A stretch of DNA of 64,000 bases, from positions 1-64,000 of the forward strand of contig JAGAJN010000024.1 in NCBI GenBank assembly GCA_017828975.1. Direction: 5' to 3'. The notes beneath the pieces are model-generated. The model was not told the DNA's origin. It saw nothing but the letters and a program-made list of their open reading frames with translations, and searched no databases. The translations under genes were made by a program, and so were the position numbers. Numbering within the stretch: the first letter of the stretch is position 1; each line of letters begins with the position of its first letter. Positions 14,275-56,709 of this stretch are shown here, one piece after another. The DNA is from Oscillospiraceae bacterium. Its GTDB lineage: Bacteria; Bacillota; Clostridia; Oscillospirales; Ruminococcaceae.

Positions 14275-15159
14275 TTATTCTTCTGTCAACTTATGCACCA
14301 GCTCGGTGAGATCGTCCTTGCCGTAGAACTCGAAGCAGAGCTTTCCGCTGCCGTTTTTGGTGTCTATGGTGACCTTTCTGCCCAGAAGATTTGTCAGGCT
14401 AAGCTCCATTTCCGTGTAAAAACTGTCCTTTCCATCGAAAAACTGCGGGTCATCGGCGGGGTCAACGTCAATATTAACGGGCGGTTCGTGCTTTGCGGGA
14501 ATGTCATTTTTGCCCTGTGCAAGCTTTTCCAGCGCTCTTACGGACATTCCGTTCATTGCCTTTGCAGCGAAATTCATCTGCATTTCTCTGTCGTTTAATC
14601 CACAGATAACCTTTGCATGACCTGCGGTAATGTCGCCCTCTGTGACCATCTGCTGCACCTCCGGGGGGAGATTGAGCAGTCTGAGAGCGTTTGTAACGGC
14701 AGTTCTGGACTTTCCCACGACCTTTGACACCTGGTCCTGTGTCATGCTAAACCGTTCGATAAGGTCCTTATAGCCCTGCGCTTCTTCGATAGGATTCAGG
14801 TTTTCTCTCTGCAGATTCTCGATAAGGGCGATCTGCATGGTTTCCTGGTCATTCAGGTCACGGACGATTATAGGAACTTCGCTTAGTCCCAGCATTCTGC
14901 AGGCTCTCCAGCGGCGTTCTCCCGCTACTATCTGGTAGCCTCCGCTCTCCAGCGGGCGCACCAAAATTGGCTGTATAAGCCCGTGCTGGCGTATGGAATC
15001 CGCAAGAGCCTGTATTGACGCCTCGTCAAAGCTGCGTCTTGGCTGGCTTTTATTTGGCTCTATTTCGGATATTCTTGCGGTCTGTGCGTTCTTTGAATCT
15101 ATGGAATTGTCGTCGAGAAGGGCATCCAGACCCATTCCCAGCACTTGCTTTTTTGCCAT
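14275..15159 (-). CDS. parB: Chromosome partition protein ParB/Spo0J
   Basis: The protein has 294 residues. It has the N-terminal ParA-interacting stretch (MAKKQVLGMGLDALL), the ParB/Srx CTP-binding core with GERRWRACRMLG (about residues 80-90) and ENLQRENLNPIEEAQGY, then an HTH (MTQDQVSKVVGKSRTAVTNALRLL), and a C-terminal dimerisation domain. It loads on parS sites (three are present nearby) and, with Soj, organises and separates the origin region. It lies downstream of soj in the same direction. Confidence 0.95.
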   Translation of the reverse strand: MAKKQVLGMGLDALLDDNSIDSKNAQTARISEIEPNKSQPRRSFDEASIQALADSIRQHGLIQPILVRPLESGGYQIVAGERRWRACRMLGLSEVPIIVRDLNDQETMQIALIENLQRENLNPIEEAQGYKDLIERFSMTQDQVSKVVGKSRTAVTNALRLLNLPPEVQQMVTEGDITAGHAKVICGLNDREMQMNFAAKAMNGMSVRALEKLAQGKNDIPAKHEPPVNIDVDPADDPQFFDGKDSFYTEMELSLTNLLGRKVTIDTKNGSGKLCFEFYGKDDLTELVHKLTEE

Positions 15160-15349: not shown

Positions 15350-16147
15350 TCAAACCTTTGCAGGCGTTTTCTTCTTTCTGGTAACATTCTCCCTTGCCAG
15401 AACCTCAAGACAAAGCTTTTCGTAATACTCCGCACCCTTGGACGCCTTGTCGTAATAGCAGACAGGCTTTCCAAAGCTGGGAGCCTCGGAAATGCGCACA
15501 TTTCTCGGTATGCAGGTCTTGAACACCTTTTCGGGGAAATGCTTCTTGACCTCTCTGACTACCTGAGCAGTGAGATTTAGTCTGCTGTCGTACATGGTGA
15601 AAAGTATTCCCTCAATGTCGATGGTGGGATTGTAACGCTGCCTTACCAGCCTGATGGTTTCTATCAGCTGCGACAGGCCTTCCAGCGAGTAGAATTCGCA
15701 TTGCAGCGGTATCAGAACAGTATCGCAGGCGCAGAGGGCGTTCAGCGTGAGCAGGCTGAGGGACGGAGGACAGTCCAGCAATATGTAGTCATAGTCCTGC
15801 TTACAGGTCAAAACCTGCATTTTCAGACGATTTGTGCGGTTATCCAGCTCGACCAACTCAATATCTGCACCCGCCAGCGAGGACGAAGATGTCACAACAG
15901 AAACATTTTTGAATTCGGTTTCGATGATAGCGTCCTTGATAGGTCTTTCGCCGATAAGAACGTCATAAACCGTGACTTTTACGTTCTTCTTTTTGATACC
16001 GAAGCCTGTCGTTGTGTTGCCCTGCGCGTCCATATCAATGCAGAGCACCTTTTTGCCGTGAATTCCCAGCACTGCCGCCAGATTTACGGTTGTCGTGGAC
16101 TTTCCTACACCGCCTTTCTGATTGGCAATCGCTATAATTTTAGCCAT
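15350..16147 (-). CDS. soj: ParA-type ATPase Soj
   Basis: The protein has 265 residues. A deviant Walker A KGGVGKSTT lies at residues 11-19, Walker A' DMDAQGN at about 40, and Walker B LLDCPPSL at about 121. It is the ATPase partner of ParB in chromosome segregation and, in B. subtilis, a regulator of DnaA. A GGAGG precedes the ATG. It sits between noc and parB, all on the minus strand. The extended basic C-terminus (ENVTRKKKTPAKV) is slightly longer than usual. Confidence 0.95.
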   Translation of the reverse strand: MAKIIAIANQKGGVGKSTTTVNLAAVLGIHGKKVLCIDMDAQGNTTTGFGIKKKNVKVTVYDVLIGERPIKDAIIETEFKNVSVVTSSSSLAGADIELVELDNRTNRLKMQVLTCKQDYDYILLDCPPSLSLLTLNALCACDTVLIPLQCEFYSLEGLSQLIETIRLVRQRYNPTIDIEGILFTMYDSRLNLTAQVVREVKKHFPEKVFKTCIPRNVRISEAPSFGKPVCYYDKASKGAEYYEKLCLEVLARENVTRKKKTPAKV

Positions 16148-37895: not shown

Positions 37896-38156
37896 ATGGA
37901 AGTACTAAAGGTTTCATCAAGATCTTCACCAAACTCTGTTGCGGGCGCAATAGCCAGCGTCATCAGGGACAATTTCTCTGTTGAGGTACAGGCTGTGGGG
38001 GCAGGCGCCGCAAATCAGGCTATCAAAGCAATAGCTGTTGCACGAGGGTATCTTGCGCCAATCGGAATAGACCTTATTTGTATTCCCGCCTTTGCAAGCG
38101 TTATCATTGAGGGCGAGGAAAGAACAGCTATGAAGCTTATCTGCGAAAGAAGATAA
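37896..38156 (+). CDS. spoVS: Stage V sporulation protein S
   Basis: The protein has 86 residues and matches the whole SpoVS/Alba-like family (VLKVSSRSSPNSVAGAIASV, QAVGAGAANQAIKAIAVARG, ICIPAFASVIIEGEERTAMK). SpoVS affects septation and spore coat assembly in B. subtilis but is also found outside spore formers. The strong AAAGGAG (37851-37857) is 38 nt away, with a hairpin in between; nearer the ATG only a weak AAAGTGA is seen. It is usually found beside ymdB, as here. Confidence 0.95.
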   Translation: MEVLKVSSRSSPNSVAGAIASVIRDNFSVEVQAVGAGAANQAIKAIAVARGYLAPIGIDLICIPAFASVIIEGEERTAMKLICERR

Positions 38157-38222
38157 TATTTGCCGTTCGATGCCGATAAATTTTTGTCGGTGACGAACGG
38201 CGGTTTTTTGGAGGTGACGGGC

Positions 38223-38903
38223 ATTAATAGAATATACAAGGTAAACACAAACAAGCTCGCCGCCAAATATAACCGTGCACTGCTTATAGTAAATCTCCCG
38301 TCCATAGCCGCCGTCCTGACGCTGCTTGCGGTGACGCTGATAAACGACGGAAAGCCGCTGACCATCTTCAATTACAAGGTGAATTTCTACATTCTCACGG
38401 GCGCTGTGGCTATTGCATTTTTCACCTCGCTTATATCGGCGGTGCTGACAAATCCCGTTTTAAAGGGACATTCCAAGGAAACGTATATCGAAATATGCGG
38501 CGGGGATATGGTCATATCTCAGTTTGTGGAATCCGCAAAATGTGAGGGAAAAGGTCTTTGCTACAAAAAGCTGTGGGTAATAAAAATGGCTGACATCGAG
38601 GACGTTTTCTACACGGGACGCTATATCGTCATCAGCGGAAAAGCCCGCCTTTTCACCGAACGCTCCGACAGACTCCGCTACACCGAAACTGAAAACGGCA
38701 TCGAGTTCGAGCATTGGTGGTACAACGAAAACGGCGGTCAGACACTGGATTACATACAGTTTCGTGACTACTATCCCCACGGAAAATGGCTCACCCGCCG
38801 AATTTTCAATACCTCCGAAAAATACAAGGAGCAGCAGGAACGCCGCCGTAAGTTCAATGACCGTATGATGAGCATTTATAAGAAAGTGAAGAGCGGAAAT
38901 TAG
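38223..38903 (+). CDS. Uncharacterised two-helix membrane protein, PH-like domain
   Basis: The protein has about 226 residues. Two transmembrane helices (about 20-42 and 52-75) are followed by a soluble region with a PH/YcxB-like feel (DIEDVFYTGRYIVISGKARLF) and a basic helical tail (KYKEQQERRRKFNDRMM). No family is assigned. The start is unusual: GGAGGTG (38210-38216) points to ATT 38223, because the in-frame GTG (38214) and TTG (38208) overlap the ribosome binding site and the TTG at 38160 has none. It is separated from spoVS by little more than this leader. Confidence 0.7.
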   Translation: MNRIYKVNTNKLAAKYNRALLIVNLPSIAAVLTLLAVTLINDGKPLTIFNYKVNFYILTGAVAIAFFTSLISAVLTNPVLKGHSKETYIEICGGDMVISQFVESAKCEGKGLCYKKLWVIKMADIEDVFYTGRYIVISGKARLFTERSDRLRYTETENGIEFEHWWYNENGGQTLDYIQFRDYYPHGKWLTRRIFNTSEKYKEQQERRRKFNDRMMSIYKKVKSGN

Positions 38904-39008: not shown

Positions 39009-39467
39009 TCAAACGTGCTTCGGCAGCCTTCTTCTGTCTAAAACTATCCTGATAAGCTCGTCAATGACCTGTCTGCGGTGACGGGTTTTCAGCTCCTCGG
39101 CGGCCTTCATATCGTTTTCCGTGCGGATAGTGACCTTCACGGAGGTAAGGCGTGTCAGCGCTTCAACGGACATTTCCGCCTTGCACAGGTCGCAGGTACA
39201 GCAGTTAAAGCGTTTGAGAACGGCGGGCATAAGCTCGGAAATAAGCTCGGAAATAACGTTTATCTCCACCCCCGCAGTATAAGCGGGACGGGGTGCGGGC
39301 TGCTTCCTTGCTTCCCTTTCTATTTGTTCCGCAATAATGTTTTGTTCCTTGAATTTATCGTCCAGAATGGGATTTTTTTCAGCCGCAGAACGGTTCAGCA
39401 GATTCAGTACCGCATTTGTTTTGTTTGTTTTTGTAGATGATTTATCAGATGTTTTAACATTGCTCAT
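39009..39467 (-). CDS. ComFB-like protein
   Basis: The protein has 152 residues. The first 60 residues are polar and probably disordered. The rest resembles the ComFB domain: a helix ISELISELMPAVLKRF, then CCTCDLC with Cys89, Cys90, Cys92 and Cys95, then SVEALTRLTSVKV. B. subtilis ComFB has the matching CTCQVC cluster. ComFB-domain proteins have been reported as c-di-GMP receptors. It overlaps the upstream ParA stop by 4 bp (ATGA), so the two proteins are made together. A zinc site from the cysteines is possible. Confidence 0.6.
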   Translation of the reverse strand: MSNVKTSDKSSTKTNKTNAVLNLLNRSAAEKNPILDDKFKEQNIIAEQIEREARKQPAPRPAYTAGVEINVISELISELMPAVLKRFNCCTCDLCKAEMSVEALTRLTSVKVTIRTENDMKAAEELKTRHRRQVIDELIRIVLDRRRLPKHV

Positions 39468-40219
39468 ATGTTACCGTACAACTCCTCTGCAAGTGCCTTG
39501 TATTCCTTTGCCGCCTTGCATCTCGGAGCGTACCGCCTGACGGTTTTCTGATGGGCGGGAGCCTCCGCCGCCGAAATACAGGGGGATATTTTCGTGTTAA
39601 GTATCACCGTGTCCAGCTGGTCGGCGACTATCTGCACCATTTCCTCAACGTCCTTGGTAAGCTGATATTTCGGGTTATATCTCGTAAGGAGAATTCCCCT
39701 TACGTCCATTTCCTTGTTATAGTATTTTTTCACGGCAATGATGGTTTCCTTCAGCTGCGCAATTCCCTGCAAGGACAGAATTTCCGCCGTCATGGGGATA
39801 ATAAGGTCATTCGCCGCAGTATAGGCGTTTATTGTAAGTATATTCAGCGCAGGGGGCGTGTCCAGAAGGATATAATCGTAATCTTCGGCAGCTTCACGAA
39901 GCTTATTTTTCAGGATAAACTCTCTGCCCTTGGTTTTCAGCTCCAGCTCCGTGCCGCTCAGGAGAATGTTTGAGGTGATAACGTCGCAGTTGTCGGTGTG
40001 CTTGATGGCAGATGCAAGTGTCGCCTCCCCTGTCAGCACCTCATGAATGGTAATTCCCAGCTCATCGGCACCCAGACTGAAGCTGAGATTTCCCTGCGGG
40101 TCAAGGTCGATGGCAAGGACACGTTTCTTTTGTGCGGTGAATTCCCCCGCAAGTCCCGAAACGGTGGTGGTTTTCCCGACGCCGCCCTTCTGATTTGTAA
40201 CAGCTATTATCCTAGCCAT
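39464..40219 (-). CDS. ParA-family ATPase (second, non-chromosomal type)
   Basis: The protein has 251 residues with a deviant Walker A QKGGVGKTTT (10-19), A' DLDPQGNLS and Walker B LLDTPPAL. It has no N-terminal HTH. It is clearly distinct from Soj at 15350 and has no ParB partner; instead it lies between a PilZ gene and a ComFB-like gene. Such ParA/MinD relatives often position other machinery, such as flagella, pili or chemoreceptors. ATGGAGGAAG precedes the start. Confidence 0.88.
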   Translation of the reverse strand: MARIIAVTNQKGGVGKTTTVSGLAGEFTAQKKRVLAIDLDPQGNLSFSLGADELGITIHEVLTGEATLASAIKHTDNCDVITSNILLSGTELELKTKGREFILKNKLREAAEDYDYILLDTPPALNILTINAYTAANDLIIPMTAEILSLQGIAQLKETIIAVKKYYNKEMDVRGILLTRYNPKYQLTKDVEEMVQIVADQLDTVILNTKISPCISAAEAPAHQKTVRRYAPRCKAAKEYKALAEELYGNI

Positions 40220-40284
40220 ATACTTCCTCCATGATTTGAATACGGCTTTCCCCGAAAAACAGGAAAAGCCGTCCGATTCTTATA

Positions 40285-40941
40285 TCAAAGTCCGCCCGCA
40301 AGCTTTCTTTTTCTTTCTCTTTCGGCAAGCTGCACCTCGAAGATATACCTTGCTATCTTCTCCTCCTGCTGAGGGGTAACGCCCTGAAATCTGCAGCCGT
40401 AGCCCATGAGATCGCCGTCATTATTCAGCTGGAGCCGTAAAATTTCCGTAAGGATATCCATCTGCCCGTCAAACAGAGAAAGGAAAATGCAGTCGCCTGT
40501 TTTAAATTCGTAATCGCAGGAAAAGAAAACTCCTCCCAGATTGATATTTTTTATATTGCATTCGATAGGGTCTTCAAACTGCAAGGTTTCCTCGTCCCTT
40601 GTGAAAAAGGAGATATATCCCGGCAGTTCGACACTTATTTTGAAGGAACATCTGCGCTCCTCCAGCACCTTGCCGTCATCGACATGGATATTTATCTGAT
40701 GCTCCGTGCAAATGTCAATGACCGTGTCGCACTGCACTCTTGTTCCGTCACGGTACTCGAAAATCACGGTAACGGGAGTGTCCTTGTGCATTTCGGGGAT
40801 ATTTTTGCCCTTGATAACGCAAAGCTCCTTGTGTTTGAACTTAAAAAAGTCCCTCGGCCAATCAATGGAATTGGAGGAAAACAGCATTTTGCCGTCGCTG
40901 CTGTAAATGGTGACCTTGATTATTTTATCCTTATTTACCAT
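40285..40941 (-). CDS. PilZ-domain protein
   Basis: The protein has 218 residues with a YcgR-like two-part layout: an N-terminal beta-rich domain (1-90) and a C-terminal PilZ domain. The c-di-GMP motifs are degenerate but recognisable: EERRCSFKI at about 94-102 (RRxxxK in place of RxxxR) and NINLGG at 132-137 (D/NxSxxG type). The C-terminal helix is basic. It may bind c-di-GMP weakly or act as a PilZ scaffold. It is the first gene of an operon with ParA (66 bp downstream) and a ComFB-like protein. Confidence 0.75.
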   Translation of the reverse strand: MVNKDKIIKVTIYSSDGKMLFSSNSIDWPRDFFKFKHKELCVIKGKNIPEMHKDTPVTVIFEYRDGTRVQCDTVIDICTEHQINIHVDDGKVLEERRCSFKISVELPGYISFFTRDEETLQFEDPIECNIKNINLGGVFFSCDYEFKTGDCIFLSLFDGQMDILTEILRLQLNNDGDLMGYGCRFQGVTPQQEEKIARYIFEVQLAERERKRKLAGGL

Positions 40942-40970: not shown

Positions 40971-40999
40971 ATTATACTATTTTCTTCCCCGTTTTGCAA
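40971..40999 (-). promoter_or_regulatory. Promoter of the pilZ-parA-comFB operon
   Basis: On the minus strand, TTGCAA (40994-40999) and TATAAT (40971-40976) are 17 bp apart, and AAGGAGGAG precedes the pilZ ATG. Confidence 0.72.
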
Positions 41000-41101
41000 T
41001 AGCTTTTTTGTGATGTTGTGGATTTTTACGATTATTTTTGGTTGGTTTTGTATATATTGAATATGAGAATATACGATTATCATATGCTGAAACTATTTCG
41101 C

Positions 41102-41135
41102 TTGACAATTGAAGATATGTACAGTATAATGTACT
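41102..41135 (+). promoter_or_regulatory. Toxin-antitoxin promoter and operator
   Basis: A perfect TTGACA (41102-41107) and TATAAT (41125-41130) lie 17 bp apart. TGTACA (41118-41123) and TGTACT (41130-41135) flank the -10. TGTACA is the known core of the E. coli YefM operator, which fits autorepression by the antitoxin. Confidence 0.75.
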
Positions 41136-41155
41136 TAAACAAAGGAGGTTTTTCT

Positions 41156-41407
41156 ATGACTAATACAAACATAACCAATCTGCGAAAAAATCTGTTTGAA
41201 TATATCGAACAGGCAGTTTCGTATAACGACGTTATAAATGTCAGCTCAAAAAACGGAAACGCCATTATTATGAGTGAGCAGGATTACAGAAATATTATGG
41301 AATCGCTGTATATTACGTCTGTTCCGGGTCTGGAGGATGAAATATTAGCAGCTTCAAAAGAACCTCTGAACGAATGCTCGGTATATGACAAAAATGAGGA
41401 ATGGTAA
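41156..41407 (+). CDS. Antitoxin, Phd/YefM family
   Basis: The protein has 83 residues. The N-terminal DNA-binding part (TNTNITNLRKNLFEYIEQAV, then INVSSKNGNAIIMSEQDYRNIMESLYI) is typical of YefM. The acidic C-terminus (LNECSVYDKNEEW) would wrap the toxin. The start follows AAAGGAGG. The stop codon overlaps the toxin start (TAATG), which keeps synthesis of the two linked. Confidence 0.88.
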   Translation: MTNTNITNLRKNLFEYIEQAVSYNDVINVSSKNGNAIIMSEQDYRNIMESLYITSVPGLEDEILAASKEPLNECSVYDKNEEW

Positions 41408-41676
41408 TGTATACGATAAGATTTTCAAAGGCAGCCGAAAAGCATAAGAAAATGCTTAAACAGGCAGGTCTTGAAGAAAACGCAAGACGTTTGCTGAATG
41501 TAATATCCGAAAATCCATATCAAAATTCGCCGCCCTATGAAGCTCTTGTGGGCAATCTGAAAGGCTTTCTGTCCCGCCGAATAAATATCCGGCACAGGCT
41601 TGTTTATGAGGTTTTCGAGGAAGAAAAAACGGTCAGAATACTCAGTATGCAGTCACATTATGAGAATGTCAGATAA
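41407..41676 (+). CDS. Toxin, YoeB/Txe family mRNA endonuclease
   Basis: The protein has 89 residues with a RelE-superfamily fold: MYTIRFSKAAEKHKKMLK, then GFLSRRINIRHRLVYEVFEEE and the C-terminal SHYENVR, which contains the catalytic His and Tyr of YoeB (…HYE). It cleaves mRNA in the ribosome when free of antitoxin. ATG 41407 is preferred over the in-frame ATG 41401 because GAGGA lies 7 nt upstream and the TAATG overlap is typical. Confidence 0.88.
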   Translation: MYTIRFSKAAEKHKKMLKQAGLEENARRLLNVISENPYQNSPPYEALVGNLKGFLSRRINIRHRLVYEVFEEEKTVRILSMQSHYENVR

Positions 41677-50593: not shown

Positions 50594-50980
50594 GTGGCTT
50601 TATTTCAGAATACCCCCTTTAAGCTGATGGAACAGGGTCTTGACGCCGTATGGTACAAGCAAAAGGTCATCAGCCATAACATTTCTAATTCAGATACACC
50701 TAATTATAAGGCTAAAAATGTTGACTTCGGACTTGTCCTCGCCGAGGAGCAGTGCAAGTGCGCTTACCATTCCGCAGATCAGGAAAAGGAGATACGGCGC
50801 CCCGTTTCCCTGCGTGTGGTCACGTCCACAGAGCCTGACACAAACTTCACCCTCGATGAAAACAACGTAAACGTCGAAACCGAGGCCATGAAGCTGGTGG
50901 ACGCTCAGTATCAGTACAGCTCGCTTATTGACCATATGAACAATGAGTTTGATATGATCTCCGCCGTTTTGCAGAAGTAA
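50594..50980 (+). CDS. flgB: Flagellar basal-body rod protein FlgB
   Basis: The protein has 128 residues. It is a proximal rod subunit. It has the family N-terminus (YKQKVISHNISNSDTPNYKAKNVDF) and C-terminal helix (AMKLVDAQYQYSSLIDHMNNEFDMI). The start is GTG 50594 after AAAGGAGC. It opens the fla/che-type operon. Confidence 0.95.
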   Translation: MALFQNTPFKLMEQGLDAVWYKQKVISHNISNSDTPNYKAKNVDFGLVLAEEQCKCAYHSADQEKEIRRPVSLRVVTSTEPDTNFTLDENNVNVETEAMKLVDAQYQYSSLIDHMNNEFDMISAVLQK

Positions 50981-51009
50981 TAACCGTTGAATTTTGAAAG
51001 GAGCGGCTT

Positions 51010-51456
51010 ATGTCGTTTATAAATTCGCTTGATATAGGTGCTTCGGCACTTTCCGCTCAGCGCCTGAGAATGGACGTTATCTCACAGAATATCGCAATGT
51101 CCGATGCTTACGAAACCGAGGAGGGCGGGGCGTACCGCCGTCAGATGGTGGTGTTTGTGGAGAAAAAGAGCTTCGCAGATACCCTTGAGGATCAGGTTTC
51201 CCGCAGACATTCGTCGAAATACAGGCTTTCGGGCGTTAAGGTAACTCAGGTGGTGGAGGACGAAACTCCCCTCGTTCCCGTTTATGACCCGGAAAATCCC
51301 GCCGCCGACGAGGAAGGCTACATATATATGCCCAACGTCGACAAGACCAAGGAAAACATCGACATGCTGGCTGCTCAGCGTTCCTACGAGGCAAACGCTT
51401 CCGCAATCGCCGCAGTTAAGGCAATGCTTACAAAAGCTATGGAACTTGGAAAATGA
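51010..51456 (+). CDS. flgC: Flagellar basal-body rod protein FlgC
   Basis: The protein has 148 residues and is the rod partner of FlgB. Signatures are LDIGASALSAQRLRMDVISQNIA and the C-terminal YMPNVDKTKENIDMLAAQRSYEANASAI. AAAGGAG precedes the ATG. Confidence 0.96.
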   Translation: MSFINSLDIGASALSAQRLRMDVISQNIAMSDAYETEEGGAYRRQMVVFVEKKSFADTLEDQVSRRHSSKYRLSGVKVTQVVEDETPLVPVYDPENPAADEEGYIYMPNVDKTKENIDMLAAQRSYEANASAIAAVKAMLTKAMELGK

Positions 51457-51474
51457 CCGAAAGGATAAAATATT

Positions 51475-51792
51475 ATGTTTATTGTACCTTTAAGCCCGAC
51501 TATAACCCCTCTTAACACCCCCGCACAGCTGGGACTCGAAAAGACCGCCGCTGCTTCGGAGGATAACTCTCAGCCCTCCTTCAAGGACGTTTTCAAGGAG
51601 GCTTATGACGCTGTTACAGAAACTCAGCGTGTCACTCAGGAGGACAGCGTCAAGCTTGTTATGGGCGAGATAGACGACCTTCACACCATCAATCTGAACG
51701 CTAAAAAGGCTCAGATGGCGGTGCAGACCTTTGTTGCTATCAAAAATACCGCCGTTGATGCCTACAAGGAGCTTATGGGCATTTCGCTGTGA
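51475..51792 (+). CDS. fliE: Flagellar hook-basal body protein FliE
   Basis: The protein has 105 residues. FliE joins the MS ring to the rod. The C-terminal half (DIDDLHTINLNAKKAQMAVQ-like segment, then KNTAVDAYKELMGISL) is diagnostic. It starts 18 bp after flgC. Confidence 0.93.
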   Translation: MFIVPLSPTITPLNTPAQLGLEKTAAASEDNSQPSFKDVFKEAYDAVTETQRVTQEDSVKLVMGEIDDLHTINLNAKKAQMAVQTFVAIKNTAVDAYKELMGISL

Positions 51793-51851
51793 TCGGCAAA
51801 AATCTAGATAAACGCCGTTTTTCCGACGGTTAAGGAAGGAAACACATAAAG

Positions 51852-53528
51852 ATGGAAAACCCTTTCAGCAAGGTTTTAAGCTCCTTTTCCCAGTTCTGGG
51901 AGGCTCAGGAGAAGAAAAGAAGAATACTTATAATTGCTGTTGCCGCTGCGATAATCGTGGCTGCGATAGTTATTACAATTATACTGAATGTAAAAAAGGA
52001 AGTCGTGCTTTTTGACGGTCTGGATTCCGAGGAGGCTTCGCAGATAGCCACGATCATTCAGGGCGAAGGCTACGATGTTACCGTCAGATCGGGCGGTAAG
52101 ATCATCGTCGAAAAGGGCACCGAGGACGAGCTGACTATGAAGCTCGCCGAGCAGGGTTATCCGAAAAATTCTCTGGATTATACTACCTGGATAAATAACG
52201 TGGATATGTTCTCCACCGACTACGAAAAGCGTGAGTACGCAAGGATCCAGACACAGGAAAGACTTGCCGCTACTCTGGAAACCATTTCCGGCGTTCGTCA
52301 GGCGATAGTGAACATCTCCCTGCCCGAGCAGAAAAACACGGTAATTGTGGAGAACAAGCTCCCCGCTACCGTTTCCGTTACGCTGCATCTTGAAAACGGA
52401 GTTACCCTCACCAACAATCAAAAGGCGGGTATCTACTCCCTGATAATGCACGCTCTGGGAGGTACTGGACTTACCGAGGACAATATCACCGTCACCGACG
52501 GAAACGGAGTTCTGCTGTTAGTCGGCGAGGAAAGCGTTGACGTTGTTGCCGACGAAACAAGAAAGTTCAAGTTCAAGTCGGATTTTGAGGAATCCATCAG
52601 ACAGAAGATCCTCTCAATGCTGGTAAGAGCCTATGGTGAGGACGGCGTTGAGGTTGCCGTAAATGCAGTCCTCGACTTTGACAAGCAGGTCCAGGAAAAC
52701 ACCGAATATGCCGCAGAGGGCGAAAATCCCGACGGCTATCAGGCAGGCGTTCTCCAGCACCGTGACGAGAGCTATGCCGCAGGTTCAACAGATGCTGCGG
52801 GCGGTCTTGCGGGACTTGAGCCTAATGCCGACGACAACTATCCCACGGGAAATGCGGGCGAGGACGGCATTTGGCGTGAAAGCGACGATTCCGAAACCTA
52901 CCTTGTAAGTACATACAAGACTCAGCTGGAAAAGCAGGGCTACTATATAAAGGGACTGTCCGTTGCAGTCGTTATCTACACGGACTATCTCTCCGACGCT
53001 CAGAGAGAGCAGATCGCAGAAAGCTGCGCAAGGGCAAGCGGCGTAAACGACGACCTTGTTTCCGTTATCAATCTGCCGAAGCTTACCGAGAATGTTCCCG
53101 CTATGCAGGAGGAGGTAATGTTCGGTCTGAACGCTCAGGAGCTTATTGTGGGCGGTGCGGCAGTAGTTGTTCTGCTTATCATTATCCTGCTTATCTGGTT
53201 TATTGCTTCCAGAAATGCCGCAAGAAAGAAGAAGAAATTCGAGAAGGCTCTGCTGGAGGCTCAGCAGGCGGGCGCAGGCGGCATTATCGACGAGGTGTTC
53301 AATCCCCAGGATACGGAGGGACTCAACATTGCCAGCCTTTCCGATTCCGACCAGGAAACAAAGGAAGTTATCATCAGACGCGAGATCTGCGAATTTGCAC
53401 AGCATAGTCCTCAGATCGTTGCTCAGCTGCTCAAGAACTGGATGAGAGAGGGCGAGGACGAACAGGCAAATAACGGCAAAAAGTCGGCAGCGGCAGCGTC
53501 CGCAGACGGAGGTACGAACAATGAGTGA
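51852..53528 (+). CDS. fliF: Flagellar MS-ring protein FliF
   Basis: The protein has 558 residues. It forms the MS ring in the membrane. TM1 (about 25-46) is followed by ring-building motifs (LFDGLDSEEASQIATIIQGE, EKREYARIQTQERLAATLE) and a periplasmic region, then TM2 (about 437-456) and a cytoplasmic tail that binds FliG. It overlaps fliG by 8 bp. Confidence 0.96.
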   Translation: MENPFSKVLSSFSQFWEAQEKKRRILIIAVAAAIIVAAIVITIILNVKKEVVLFDGLDSEEASQIATIIQGEGYDVTVRSGGKIIVEKGTEDELTMKLAEQGYPKNSLDYTTWINNVDMFSTDYEKREYARIQTQERLAATLETISGVRQAIVNISLPEQKNTVIVENKLPATVSVTLHLENGVTLTNNQKAGIYSLIMHALGGTGLTEDNITVTDGNGVLLLVGEESVDVVADETRKFKFKSDFEESIRQKILSMLVRAYGEDGVEVAVNAVLDFDKQVQENTEYAAEGENPDGYQAGVLQHRDESYAAGSTDAAGGLAGLEPNADDNYPTGNAGEDGIWRESDDSETYLVSTYKTQLEKQGYYIKGLSVAVVIYTDYLSDAQREQIAESCARASGVNDDLVSVINLPKLTENVPAMQEEVMFGLNAQELIVGGAAVVVLLIIILLIWFIASRNAARKKKKFEKALLEAQQAGAGGIIDEVFNPQDTEGLNIASLSDSDQETKEVIIRREICEFAQHSPQIVAQLLKNWMREGEDEQANNGKKSAAAASADGGTNNE

Positions 53529-54531
53529 TATTTCCGAGCTTACCGCAATTCAGCGGTGCGCAACGGTCATTACCGCTATCGGTGCGGAGAATGCCGCCAA
53601 TGTTTACCGCTTTCTCGGGGACGACGAGGTGGAAAAGCTCACCTACGAGGTTTCCACTCTTCCCTATACAGATGTTACTACCGTTAATGAGGTTCTGAAT
53701 GAATTCTACGAGCTTTGCCTGACGCAGAAGGTCATTACCGAGGGCGGCGTGGTTTACGCAAGAAATATCCTGGAAAAGGCTTTCGGCGAGGAACAGGCAA
53801 GGGTGCTTATGGACAAGGTTTCACGTTCCTTGCAGTCCAAGGCGTTCGAGTTTGTCAGAAAATCCGATTACAAGAATCTGCTGGCTATCGTGCAGAACGA
53901 GTACCCGCAGACTATCGCACTTATTCTTTCCTATGTCAACTCCGACCAGGCGGCTGCCGTTCTCAGCGAGCTGCCTAAGGAAAAGCGTGTTGAGGTCGTT
54001 GAGCGTATCGCTAAGATGGACTCCGCCTCCCCCGAAACTATCAAGGCGGTGGAGGATATTCTGGAGAAAAAATTCGCAGATGTCATTTCCATGGACCTTA
54101 CAGAGGTCGGCGGTATCAACTACATTGCCGAGGTACTCAATCACGTGGACAGAGGAACGGAAAAGTTCATCTTCGACGAGCTGGCTGTCAAGAATCCCGA
54201 CCTTGTTGCCGAGATCAGACAGAAGATGTTCGTTTTCGAGGATATTCTTTCGCTGGACTCTATGTCTATCCAGCGTTTCATCAGAGATGTGGAAACCAAG
54301 GACCTGGCGGTGGCTATCAAGGGTTCGTCCCAGGAGGTTGCCGCAGCCCTTTACGCAAATATGCCGAAGAGAATGCAGGAGTCTATCCAGCAGGAGATCG
54401 AATATCTGCATAACGTTCGTATGCGTGACGTTGAAGAGGCGCAGCAGCGTATCGTTGCAGTTATCCGTCATCTGGAGGAGGAAGGCGAGCTGGTTATCGG
54501 AAAGGGCGGAAAGGACGAGATAATTGCTTAA
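53521..54531 (+). CDS. fliG: Flagellar motor switch protein FliG
   Basis: The protein has 336 residues. Armadillo-like domains lead to the C-terminal torque helix (FVFEDILSLDSMSIQRFIRDV). The EHPQ-like middle motif here reads NEYPQTIALILSY. It overlaps fliF and fliH by 8 bp on each side. Confidence 0.96.
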   Translation: MSDISELTAIQRCATVITAIGAENAANVYRFLGDDEVEKLTYEVSTLPYTDVTTVNEVLNEFYELCLTQKVITEGGVVYARNILEKAFGEEQARVLMDKVSRSLQSKAFEFVRKSDYKNLLAIVQNEYPQTIALILSYVNSDQAAAVLSELPKEKRVEVVERIAKMDSASPETIKAVEDILEKKFADVISMDLTEVGGINYIAEVLNHVDRGTEKFIFDELAVKNPDLVAEIRQKMFVFEDILSLDSMSIQRFIRDVETKDLAVAIKGSSQEVAAALYANMPKRMQESIQQEIEYLHNVRMRDVEEAQQRIVAVIRHLEEEGELVIGKGGKDEIIA

Positions 54532-55399
54532 AGTCGTTAAGCCTTCACAGGCAGTTTTCGATTACAATAACAGCGTTGCCATCGACAACACCGTGGTGCT
54601 CCCCCCGCCCCCCGAGGACAGCGACGAGTTCATCTCCTTCCGTGAGCAGAAGCAGCGGGAGGAAGAGGAACGTATCCGCAAGATTCAGGAGCAGGCGGAA
54701 ACGGAAGCCCGTATTCAGCGTGAGATAGAAGCAGGCATCGAGCGTGCCATGAACGAACGCCATATGGTCATCAACGGCGAACGGGACAGGATACTTGAGG
54801 AAGCCAAGGCTCAGGCAAATCATCAGATAGCCGAAGCTAAGGCAGCCGCCATGCAGTATCTCAAAAGGGCAGAGCAAGAGGCAGCCATTGCCATGGAAAA
54901 CGCCCGCAAGGACGGTTACAAGGACGGCTATGCCACGGGCAAAAAGGAAAGCCTTGCCAAATGCGAATCCTACCTTAAGGCGGCGGCAGGCTTCTTAAAC
55001 GAAATAAACTCCCGAAAGGAAGCTTATTATATATCAAATCAGGAGGAAATGAAGGACACGGTCATGGAGCTTGTGCGGAAAATTACCCTCACAGAGCTGA
55101 AAACCGACCCTCATATCCTTGAAGAGATCATCGCACAGGCGGCGAAAAACTTCCGAAATTCCGACTTCGTGAAGATCTCGCTGGCAAAGGGCGAGGTTTC
55201 CGAAAAGCTGAAAACCGACGCAAAATTCCTGAAAGAGCTTATCTCCTTTATCCCCGACATCGAGATAGAAATTCTTCCCGAAGCGGAGGATAACACCGTA
55301 ATTCTCGACAACGGCTCGGAGATAATAGATGCGTCTGTTCCCACTCAGCTGGACTTTTTGCAGGAAATAATCAAGAATACCCGAAGCGCAAGAGGTTAA
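54524..55399 (+). CDS. fliH: Flagellar assembly protein FliH
   Basis: The protein has 291 residues. It regulates the export ATPase FliI. A long acidic and glutamate-rich coiled coil covers about 35-140, followed by the conserved VRKITLTELKTDPHILEEII region and C-terminal FliH/V-ATPase-E-like domain. The start is TTG 54524, inside the end of fliG. Confidence 0.9.
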   Translation: MLKVVKPSQAVFDYNNSVAIDNTVVLPPPPEDSDEFISFREQKQREEEERIRKIQEQAETEARIQREIEAGIERAMNERHMVINGERDRILEEAKAQANHQIAEAKAAAMQYLKRAEQEAAIAMENARKDGYKDGYATGKKESLAKCESYLKAAAGFLNEINSRKEAYYISNQEEMKDTVMELVRKITLTELKTDPHILEEIIAQAAKNFRNSDFVKISLAKGEVSEKLKTDAKFLKELISFIPDIEIEILPEAEDNTVILDNGSEIIDASVPTQLDFLQEIIKNTRSARG

Positions 55400-55404
55400 A
55401 ACAC

Positions 55405-56709
55405 ATGGATTTTTCCGCTGTCAGAAATGCCGTGAGAAACACGGAGCTTTACAGATATATGGGCAAGATCGAGAAGATAATCGGTATGACTATCGAATCG
55501 AGCGGTCCTGTCTGCAATATCGGCGACGTGTGCAGGATATTCAAAAAAGGCTCCGACGACTACATTTTTGCGGAGGTCGTGGGATTTTCCAACGGCAGAG
55601 TCATGCTGATGCCCTATACCGATTCGGACGGCATAGGTCCCGGCTGTATCGTTGACAATACGGGCGACAAGCTTACCGTTAAGGTGGGAAATCAGCTTAT
55701 CGGACGGATAATCAACGCCATCGGGCAGCCTATTGACGGCAAGGGAAGCATCGAAACCACCGACAGCTATTCCATTGCAGGCGAACCCGTGAACCCCCTG
55801 ACCCGTCCGAGGATAGAGGACATTATGCAGTTCGGCGTTAAGGCTATCGACGGTCTGCTGACTATCGGCAGAGGACAGAGAATGGGCATTTTCGCAGGCT
55901 CGGGCGTTGGTAAATCCACACTTCTCGGTATGATAGCCCGTGAGGTCAAGGCGGACGTCAACGTTATCGCCCTTGTGGGTGAGCGAGGACGTGAGGTCTT
56001 AGAGTTCATCGAAAGGGACTTGGGAGAAAAGGGTATGGCACGTTCCGTTCTGGTAGTTGCCACCTCCGACCAGCCCGCTATGATGCGTAACCGCTGCCCC
56101 ATGACCGCTACCGCAATTGCCGAATATTTCAAGGACCAGGGCAAAAACGTCCTGCTGATGATGGACAGTCTGACACGTTACGCTATGGCGCAGCGTGAGA
56201 TAGGTCTTGCCGTGGGCGAAGCGCCTATTGCAAGAGGTTACACGCCGTCCATCTACACCGCAATGCCAAAGCTTCTGGAGCGTGCGGGGAACTTTGAAAA
56301 AGGCTCTATCACAGGCGTTTACACCGTTCTCGTTGAGGGCGATGACACCAACGAGCCTATCTCAGATACGGTAAGAGGTATCATCGACGGACATATTATC
56401 CTGTCGAGAAAGGTGGCGGCGAGAAACCATTATCCCGCTATTGAGATTCTGGAAAGCGTTTCCCGTCTGATGAGCGAAATTACCGACAAATCTCAGCAGC
56501 AGACTGCCGCAAAGCTCAGAAATCTGCTGTCCGTATACAACACGAACTTCGACCTGATAGCTATCGGCGCATACAAAAAGGGTTCAAATCCGGCTCTGGA
56601 CGAGGCTGTCAAGAAGATAGACAAGATAAACGCATTTTTGCAGCAGGCAACGGACGAAGCGTTCTCCTTCGAGGAAACGGTCCGCCTGATGACAGAAGCG
56701 GTTTCCTAG
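55405..56709 (+). CDS. fliI: Flagellum-specific export ATPase FliI
   Basis: The protein has 434 residues. It has an F1-like ATPase domain with Walker A GSGVGKSTLLGMIA at about 171, DSLTRYAMAQREIGLAVGEAP, and the type III ATPase signature PKLLERAG. It drives export of rod, hook and filament subunits. It lies 5 bp after fliH. Confidence 0.97.
   Translation: MDFSAVRNAVRNTELYRYMGKIEKIIGMTIESSGPVCNIGDVCRIFKKGSDDYIFAEVVGFSNGRVMLMPYTDSDGIGPGCIVDNTGDKLTVKVGNQLIGRIINAIGQPIDGKGSIETTDSYSIAGEPVNPLTRPRIEDIMQFGVKAIDGLLTIGRGQRMGIFAGSGVGKSTLLGMIAREVKADVNVIALVGERGREVLEFIERDLGEKGMARSVLVVATSDQPAMMRNRCPMTATAIAEYFKDQGKNVLLMMDSLTRYAMAQREIGLAVGEAPIARGYTPSIYTAMPKLLERAGNFEKGSITGVYTVLVEGDDTNEPISDTVRGIIDGHIILSRKVAARNHYPAIEILESVSRLMSEITDKSQQQTAAKLRNLLSVYNTNFDLIAIGAYKKGSNPALDEAVKKIDKINAFLQQATDEAFSFEETVRLMTEAVS

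Follow-up and report, generated by a model that had tools for sequence, protein, structure and literature searches.

We identified a conserved flagellar ParA-ComFB gene pair in Bacillota, in which the gene of a ParA ATPase adjoins that of a ComFB-like protein. Among the genomes tested for FlhF, the pair has so far been seen only where FlhF was not found. As judged from genome context, it probably controls flagellar placement or number where FlhF-FlhG is missing, and on balance we lean towards a ParA/partner system dedicated to the flagellum that sets the place or number of flagella.

The pair was located in a 64,000-nucleotide stretch of DNA, called the window throughout. A preliminary description had proposed three minus-strand genes there, with the comFB-like gene overlapping parA by 4 bp and a flagellar operon about 10 kb away. 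The ORF coordinates confirmed the frames at 40285-40941 (218 aa), 39464-40219 (251 aa) and 39009-39467 (152 aa) as well as the 4-bp overlap, and flgB starts at 50594, 9.7 kb from pilZ. The features of the region are as follows.

40285..40941, minus strand: pilZ, an N-terminal part of about 95 aa and a PilZ domain with RxxxK and NxNxxG (Pfam, 13-sequence alignment)
39464..40219, minus strand: parA, classed as a Soj-type ParA ATPase with intact KGGVGKT and, by eye, without an amphipathic C-terminal tail (Pfam, alignment, tree, C-termini)
39009..39467, minus strand: gene of the comFB-like putative ParA partner, with an N-terminal K-T motif, a linker and a C-terminal ComFB domain
39384..39431, minus strand: N-terminal motif I of the partner, codons 13-28, KTNKTNAVLNLLNRSA, proposed ParA-contact peptide
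39183..39203, minus strand: CCTCDLC cysteine cluster (C89-C95) in the ComFB domain of the partner, including CxCxxC
40971..40999, minus strand: promoter-like site TTGCAA-17-TATAAT upstream of pilZ, a consensus match only (10/12)
40242..40272, minus strand: 13-bp hairpin in the pilZ/parA gap without a T-run, from folding; no terminator-like site listed there
38160..38903, plus strand: gene of a 247-aa protein with no Pfam match over the cut-off, convergent with comFB
50594..56709, plus strand: flgB-flgC-fliE-fliF-fliG-(291-aa gene)-fliI by Pfam, flgB and flgC being named from rod-domain matches and gene order

One promoter had been assumed for all three genes. A promoter-like site does lie 5' of pilZ, and no minus-strand terminator-like site was found inside the three-gene operon, but promoter-like sites in the region exceeded expectation (9 observed vs 4.3 expected), and one shared promoter for pilZ, parA and comFB is plausible only. 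Divergent from pilZ, Phd/YefM-type antitoxin and YoeB-type toxin genes were seen at 41018-41676 (plus strand), with a perfect TTGACA-17-TATAAT site at 41102-41130 in this toxin-antitoxin region. A SpoVS gene was also observed close to the operon, at 37896-38156 (plus strand).

To assess conservation of the pair, we searched 148 genomes from the window's family and recovered the partner in 40, with parA adjoining in each. From the 39 partner genomes other than the window's, 40 regions were fetched, of which 38 had parA next to comFB on the same strand. Of the remaining two, L047 breaks off at its contig end within a ParA-like frame beside comFB, as judged by eye, and L062 is an additional, short ComFB gene from a genome that has parA at its other locus (L069). 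With 38 pairs whole, L047 cut by the contig end and L062 an extra locus, all 39 genomes carry the pair, and the proposed linkage thus held in every other partner genome. Partner-positive genera amounted to 34 of the 123 among these genomes. Two types of loci were distinguished: type I loci are close to the window, with ParA 51-69% identical outside the genus, and type II loci are more distant (35-49%). The three-gene make-up held in its parA-comFB core, but its pilZ member was frequent in type I only and was not found upstream in type II. In a sample of the phylum, the pair was present in five further genomes of three further families (G758; G643; G610, G633, G732). For this sample 44 loci were scanned for ParA (the loci of two genomes twice) and 16 were fetched, mostly chosen for long reading frames, so it gives no frequency. 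The G758 pair has flgK and a flagellin-like gene close by; of the neighbours of the G643 pair, two were checked, RNase J and an amino-acid kinase, neither of them flagellar.

The parA product matched Pfam AAA_31 with 177 bits, and a solved-structure sequence search with it matched Soj/ParA chains. Its deviant Walker A motif (KGGxGKT) and Walker B motif are intact, basic C-terminal residues are present in the tail, and K11, G12, G13, G15, K16, D38, D40, D115 and D120 were invariant in 17 sequences, one of which was Soj. In a ParA tree made by a quick method, type I and type II both fell outside the Soj branch (99); the type II branch had a support of 96, and type I a weaker one of 80 and was drawn open. 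FlhF-FlhG likewise has a ParA/MinD-family ATPase tied to flagellar genes, but the flagellar ParA was far from FlhG and MinD in this tree (split support 100), and the partner here has a ComFB domain. DQAxxLR, the N-terminal motif of FlhG, was close to the start in 9/9 FlhG proteins fetched, whereas the window ParA begins MARIIAVTNQKGG, without the motif. By eye, the C-terminal tails of two of three FlhG proteins looked amphipathic, compared with none of four flagellar ParA. Judged by sequence, the window ParA is Soj-type and not FlhG. Among the other ParA-type genes of its own genome, a search with the window ParA gave only Soj and one gene best matching MinD (188 bits vs a cut-off of 213).

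As the preliminary description had noted, no ParB adjoins parA, and the partner in that place is the ComFB-like protein; this differs from ParABS, for which an adjacent ParB is the criterion. A separate Soj (15350-16147) and a ParB/Noc-type gene (14275-15159) lie elsewhere in the window. The partner scored 20.5 bits against PF10719, under the cut-off of 25, a score that by itself does not establish it as a ComFB member. Nineteen of 25 partner homologues matched PF10719 at E 0.01 or better (best 2.7e-20), and a profile built from partner homologues recovered ordinary short ComFB proteins; through these matches the supposed ComFB kinship of the cysteine-rich protein was borne out. The CxCxxC cluster was found in 21/22 type I and 26/26 type II partners. 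CCTCDLC includes this CxCxxC. In B. subtilis ComFB the motif provides three of the four residues that bind zinc, reported as C25, C27, C30 and C88 (PMC4381287, excerpt). A solved-structure sequence search with the partner gave no credible relative (best E 0.3), and a scan of named genomes with it gave one relative, on an uncultured Ruminococcus contig. The window's genome also has a second, short, typical ComFB gene (L001; G000:C24 41311-41553), beside what is presumably the gene of a MoxR-like ATPase; this other ComFB gene of the genome scored 71 bits.

The partner consists of a conserved lysine-bearing N-terminal motif, a variable linker and the ComFB domain. K16 and T17 were invariant in 14 aligned partner sequences. 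With patterns composed after viewing the alignments, KTxx[VIL][LMF]x[LM][LIMV] near the N-terminus was present in 22/22 type I partners (window included) and 3/86 short ComFB proteins, and [DSN][KRT][DEQ]x[MIL][YF]xx[ILM]MP in 26/26 type II partners and 0/86 short ComFB proteins. The type of N-terminal motif thus tracks the type of the adjoining ParA across families (22/22; 26/26). The first 25 residues carried a mean charge of +3.4 in type I (n=12) but only +0.8 in type II (n=23). Partners of ParA/MinD ATPases have been shown or suggested to contact the ATPase via a positively charged, disordered N-terminus (PMC10241942, consulted in part). The motif was kept in the L041 partner (L041:2859-3284), which lost the ComFB cysteine cluster, and in the L210 partner (L210:8757-9320, genome G015), which had no match to the ComFB profile.

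ParA proteins abound, and the window protein scores below the Pfam cut-off for ComFB, as might be expected of a remnant of plasmid or chromosome partition or of a chance neighbourhood. Such an origin is extremely improbable and was rejected: it is refuted by the conservation of the pairing across families, the Walker motifs are intact, the motif type matches the ParA type, and the genome has its separate Soj-ParB pair.

The PilZ domain of the 40285-40941 product matched Pfam with 45.1 bits (cut-off 22.5), and the N-terminal part of about 95 aa had no Pfam match over the cut-off. Degenerate binding motifs had been described for it, and RxxxK and [ND]xNxxG indeed occurred in 13/13 aligned sequences, window included. 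The canonical motifs of PilZ c-di-GMP receptors are RxxxR and [DN]xSxxG, neither of which is present in the window protein; with the altered forms in 13/13, binding of c-di-GMP by the PilZ protein is doubtful. YcgR/MotI-type PilZ proteins resemble it in length (about 218 aa), in having an extra N-terminal part before the PilZ domain and in their flagellar setting, but differ in that the N-terminal part here lacks a Pfam match and both c-di-GMP motifs are altered. A solved-structure sequence search with the protein gave no credible relative. In 14 of the 22 other type I loci pilZ lies upstream of parA on the same strand, directly in 11 and with a GGDEF-type gene between in 3; type II loci gave no pilZ in that position. 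Downstream of comFB, pilZ is present in three genomes of another family (L264 and L265 by Pfam, L266 by our own profile only). In the place of pilZ upstream of parA, a 701-aa frame with a weak SHOCT match was seen in L036 (L036:5680-7785), and a 351-aa frame reaching the contig end in L038 (L038:2708-3763). In ten type I loci that do not come from the window's genus, the gene of a homologue of the 247-aa protein (38160-38903) diverges from pilZ, which suggests that this protein may belong to the system as a possible fourth partner.

As for the flagellar connection, a probed flagellar gene was found within 7 kb in 31 of 48 parA loci (the 49th row of the synteny table, L062, is not a parA locus). 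In eight type I loci (L034, L035, L036, L038, L039, L041, L042, L044), flgB lies on the same strand 0.7-1.1 kb past parA, and in seven of them fliE and fliF also follow. The flgB operon is on the opposite strand at 4.2 kb in L049 and L210, fliD on the opposite strand at 0.1-0.3 kb in L108, L109, L110 and L214, and flgM, flgN or flgK on the opposite strand within 1.4 kb in sixteen type II loci; L215 has flhA at 6 kb. The identities of FlgM, FlgN, FlgK and FliD were confirmed by Pfam in representative loci. In the other 17 parA loci no probed flagellar gene was found within 7 kb; ten of these had too little flank on one side or both, six had ample flank (L046, L056, L058, L070, L211, L212), and the same-genus L033 shows the arrangement of the window, at about 10 kb.

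In the family, flhA scored over its cut-off in 50/148 genomes and was present in 39 of the 40 partner genomes. Among the 11 flhA genomes without a partner match, six yielded a close relative when searched with ParA: in G033, G036, G051, G099 and G140 the locus has comFB, and in G015 it has an adjacent partner with the N-terminal motif and without a ComFB profile match. In flhA-positive G023, G053, G064, G068 and G087 the pair was not found, and only a more distant ParA or none was seen. The locus was therefore present in 45/50 flhA genomes vs 1/98 without flhA (Fisher p 4.3e-31, kinship ignored), the 97 remaining flhA-less genomes being covered by the partner search alone; the exception is G047, a genome 73% complete in which the pair was present but flhA was not found. 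Together with the synteny, this co-occurrence bore out the flagellar connection proposed in the preliminary description.

Flagellar neighbours may also be read in other ways. The pair might control flagellar gene expression, with ParA-ComFB acting on a regulator in response to c-di-GMP, as FlhG/FleN does on FleQ/FlrA. The gene of the anti-sigma factor FlgM adjoins type II loci, and CdgR, described as the ComFB homologue of Anabaena/Nostoc (PMC12313861, in part), acts partly via the transcription factor DevH (excerpt of PMC13075795); the neighbour may, however, be the flgB operon, fliD or flgM-flgK, so that no single regulator is constant, and short ComFB proteins without ParA beside them are common (86 loci). 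We consider this explanation unlikely. That the cargo is the chemotaxis array, which ParC and PpfA position, and that the flagellar linkage is indirect, seems to us quite unlikely: a Soj-type ParA with no obvious membrane tail is reminiscent of systems that position clusters on the nucleoid and cheC lies within the flagellar operon of the own genome, but the neighbours found were structural flagellar genes (the probe set was without che genes).

Returning to control of flagellar placement or number, we determined the distribution of FlhF. In the 148 family genomes none was found when at most the 15 top-ranked candidates of each were scored; both search controls, B. subtilis and Thermotoga, were positive. 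In the own genome 69/69 candidates were scored, and the best reached 75.4 bits vs a cut-off of 174.15; flhA is followed there by a sigma-factor gene (fliA-like), two FlgE/F/G-type genes, cheC and fapA, the 160-aa frame between cheC and fapA being left out of the Pfam scan. A sample of the class comprised 292 genomes at least 85% complete, with FlhF called from the 8 best-ranked candidates per genome. It showed flhA in 118, FlhF in 108 and ComFB in 90 genomes, and FlhF in 107/118 flagellates. ComFB was confined nearly to flhA genomes (89 of its 90 genomes), and 29 flhA genomes had no ComFB match. This near-exclusiveness suggests that the name 'late competence protein' is a poor guide to the role of ComFB in the class.

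Cyanobacterial transformation does need ComFB (PMC12313861, partial text), but deletion of comFB in B. subtilis leaves DNA uptake unchanged (PMC4381287, excerpt). A competence or DNA-uptake operon, as the ComFB name would have it, is very improbable, and with this deletion result and the flhA restriction it was rejected.

Most ComFB of the class sample were short proteins without ParA beside them (86 loci). Eighty-one FlhF genomes, one of them without flhA, had a ComFB match; 85 loci were fetched from them, usually with a flank of at least 1.5 kb, and ParA was found beside ComFB in 0/85. The pair was thus present in 0/107 FlhF flagellates (in 80 of these the ComFB loci were scanned for ParA, and the other 27 had no ComFB match) and in 5/11 flagellates without FlhF (G000, G015, G253, G291, G367), with a Fisher p of 2.6e-6, kinship ignored; G000 and G015 were counted in both the family and the class sample. 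It was not found in the other six class flagellates without FlhF (G157, G190, G228, G298, G313, G413). Flagellates without the pair, 5/50 in the family and 6/11 in the class sample, indicated that loss of FlhF does not require it. A strict replacement of FlhF-FlhG was weakened by these 11 flagellates (five family, six class), which showed neither.

A cyclic-dinucleotide input was suggested from both the literature and the gene neighbourhoods. Cyanobacterial ComFB proteins bind c-di-AMP and c-di-GMP (PMC12313861, in the part consulted). A GGDEF-type gene lies between pilZ and parA in L049 (by Pfam) and in L210 and L211 (motif seen), an EAL-HDOD gene adjoins comFB in L108 and L109, and the own genome has 28 GGDEF matches. 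The ComFB partner probably senses a cyclic dinucleotide; that both ends of the operon would sense c-di-GMP is something we only infer.

Within the favoured reading, a system setting the place or number of flagella, the parts may work together as follows, in a scheme that covers the ParA-partner contact, surface, ligand, cargo and function. ParA would bind ATP and dimerise on a surface, most likely the nucleoid, given that it appears to be without the membrane tail of FlhG and MinD. The lysine-bearing N-terminus of the partner would contact ParA and stimulate ATP hydrolysis, as is believed of ParB, McdB and other such partners. The partner's ComFB domain, which forms a dimer in B. subtilis, would bind a flagellar component or a cyclic dinucleotide and so might couple the ParA cycle to flagella and to the c-di-GMP (or c-di-AMP) level, with the PilZ protein as a putative accessory module of the same signalling. 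The system would then determine the site or number of flagella, as FlhF-FlhG does in most other flagellates of the class. In its most specific form we hold the proposal only tentatively, at somewhat short of an even chance: FlhF-FlhG-independent control of flagellar placement or count by a nucleoid-based ParA and a ComFB partner, with ParA contact gated by c-di-GMP (or c-di-AMP), which would have emerged in, or spread through, several Bacillota lineages and would take the place of FlhF-FlhG in the window's family.

We know of no ParA/MinD positioning partner with a ComFB domain. None was met in the open-access literature searched, and no description of a ParA-ComFB flagellar system appeared in that literature, which was represented mostly by titles and abstracts. 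ParAB, McdAB and ParC/PpfA resemble the pair in having an ATPase gene beside a partner with a conserved lysine-bearing N-terminus (PMC10241942, consulted in part), but here a putative cyclic-dinucleotide input and a flagellar genomic context are added. ComFB and CdgR receptors share the ComFB domain with its CxCxxC cluster, whereas the partner has an N-terminal extension of motif and linker, adjoins parA in the family loci examined and lies outside a competence operon. A 2025 review considered that absence of FlhF-FlhG possibly results from newer regulatory systems or genome streamlining (PMC12826062); a word search of its text gave no instance of Clostridi-, Firmicutes or Bacillota. The locus is a concrete candidate for controlling flagellar placement or count without FlhF-FlhG in a large group of anaerobes. 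ComFB gains a new setting by its pairing with an ATPase, and direct control of a ParA system by c-di-GMP becomes testable.
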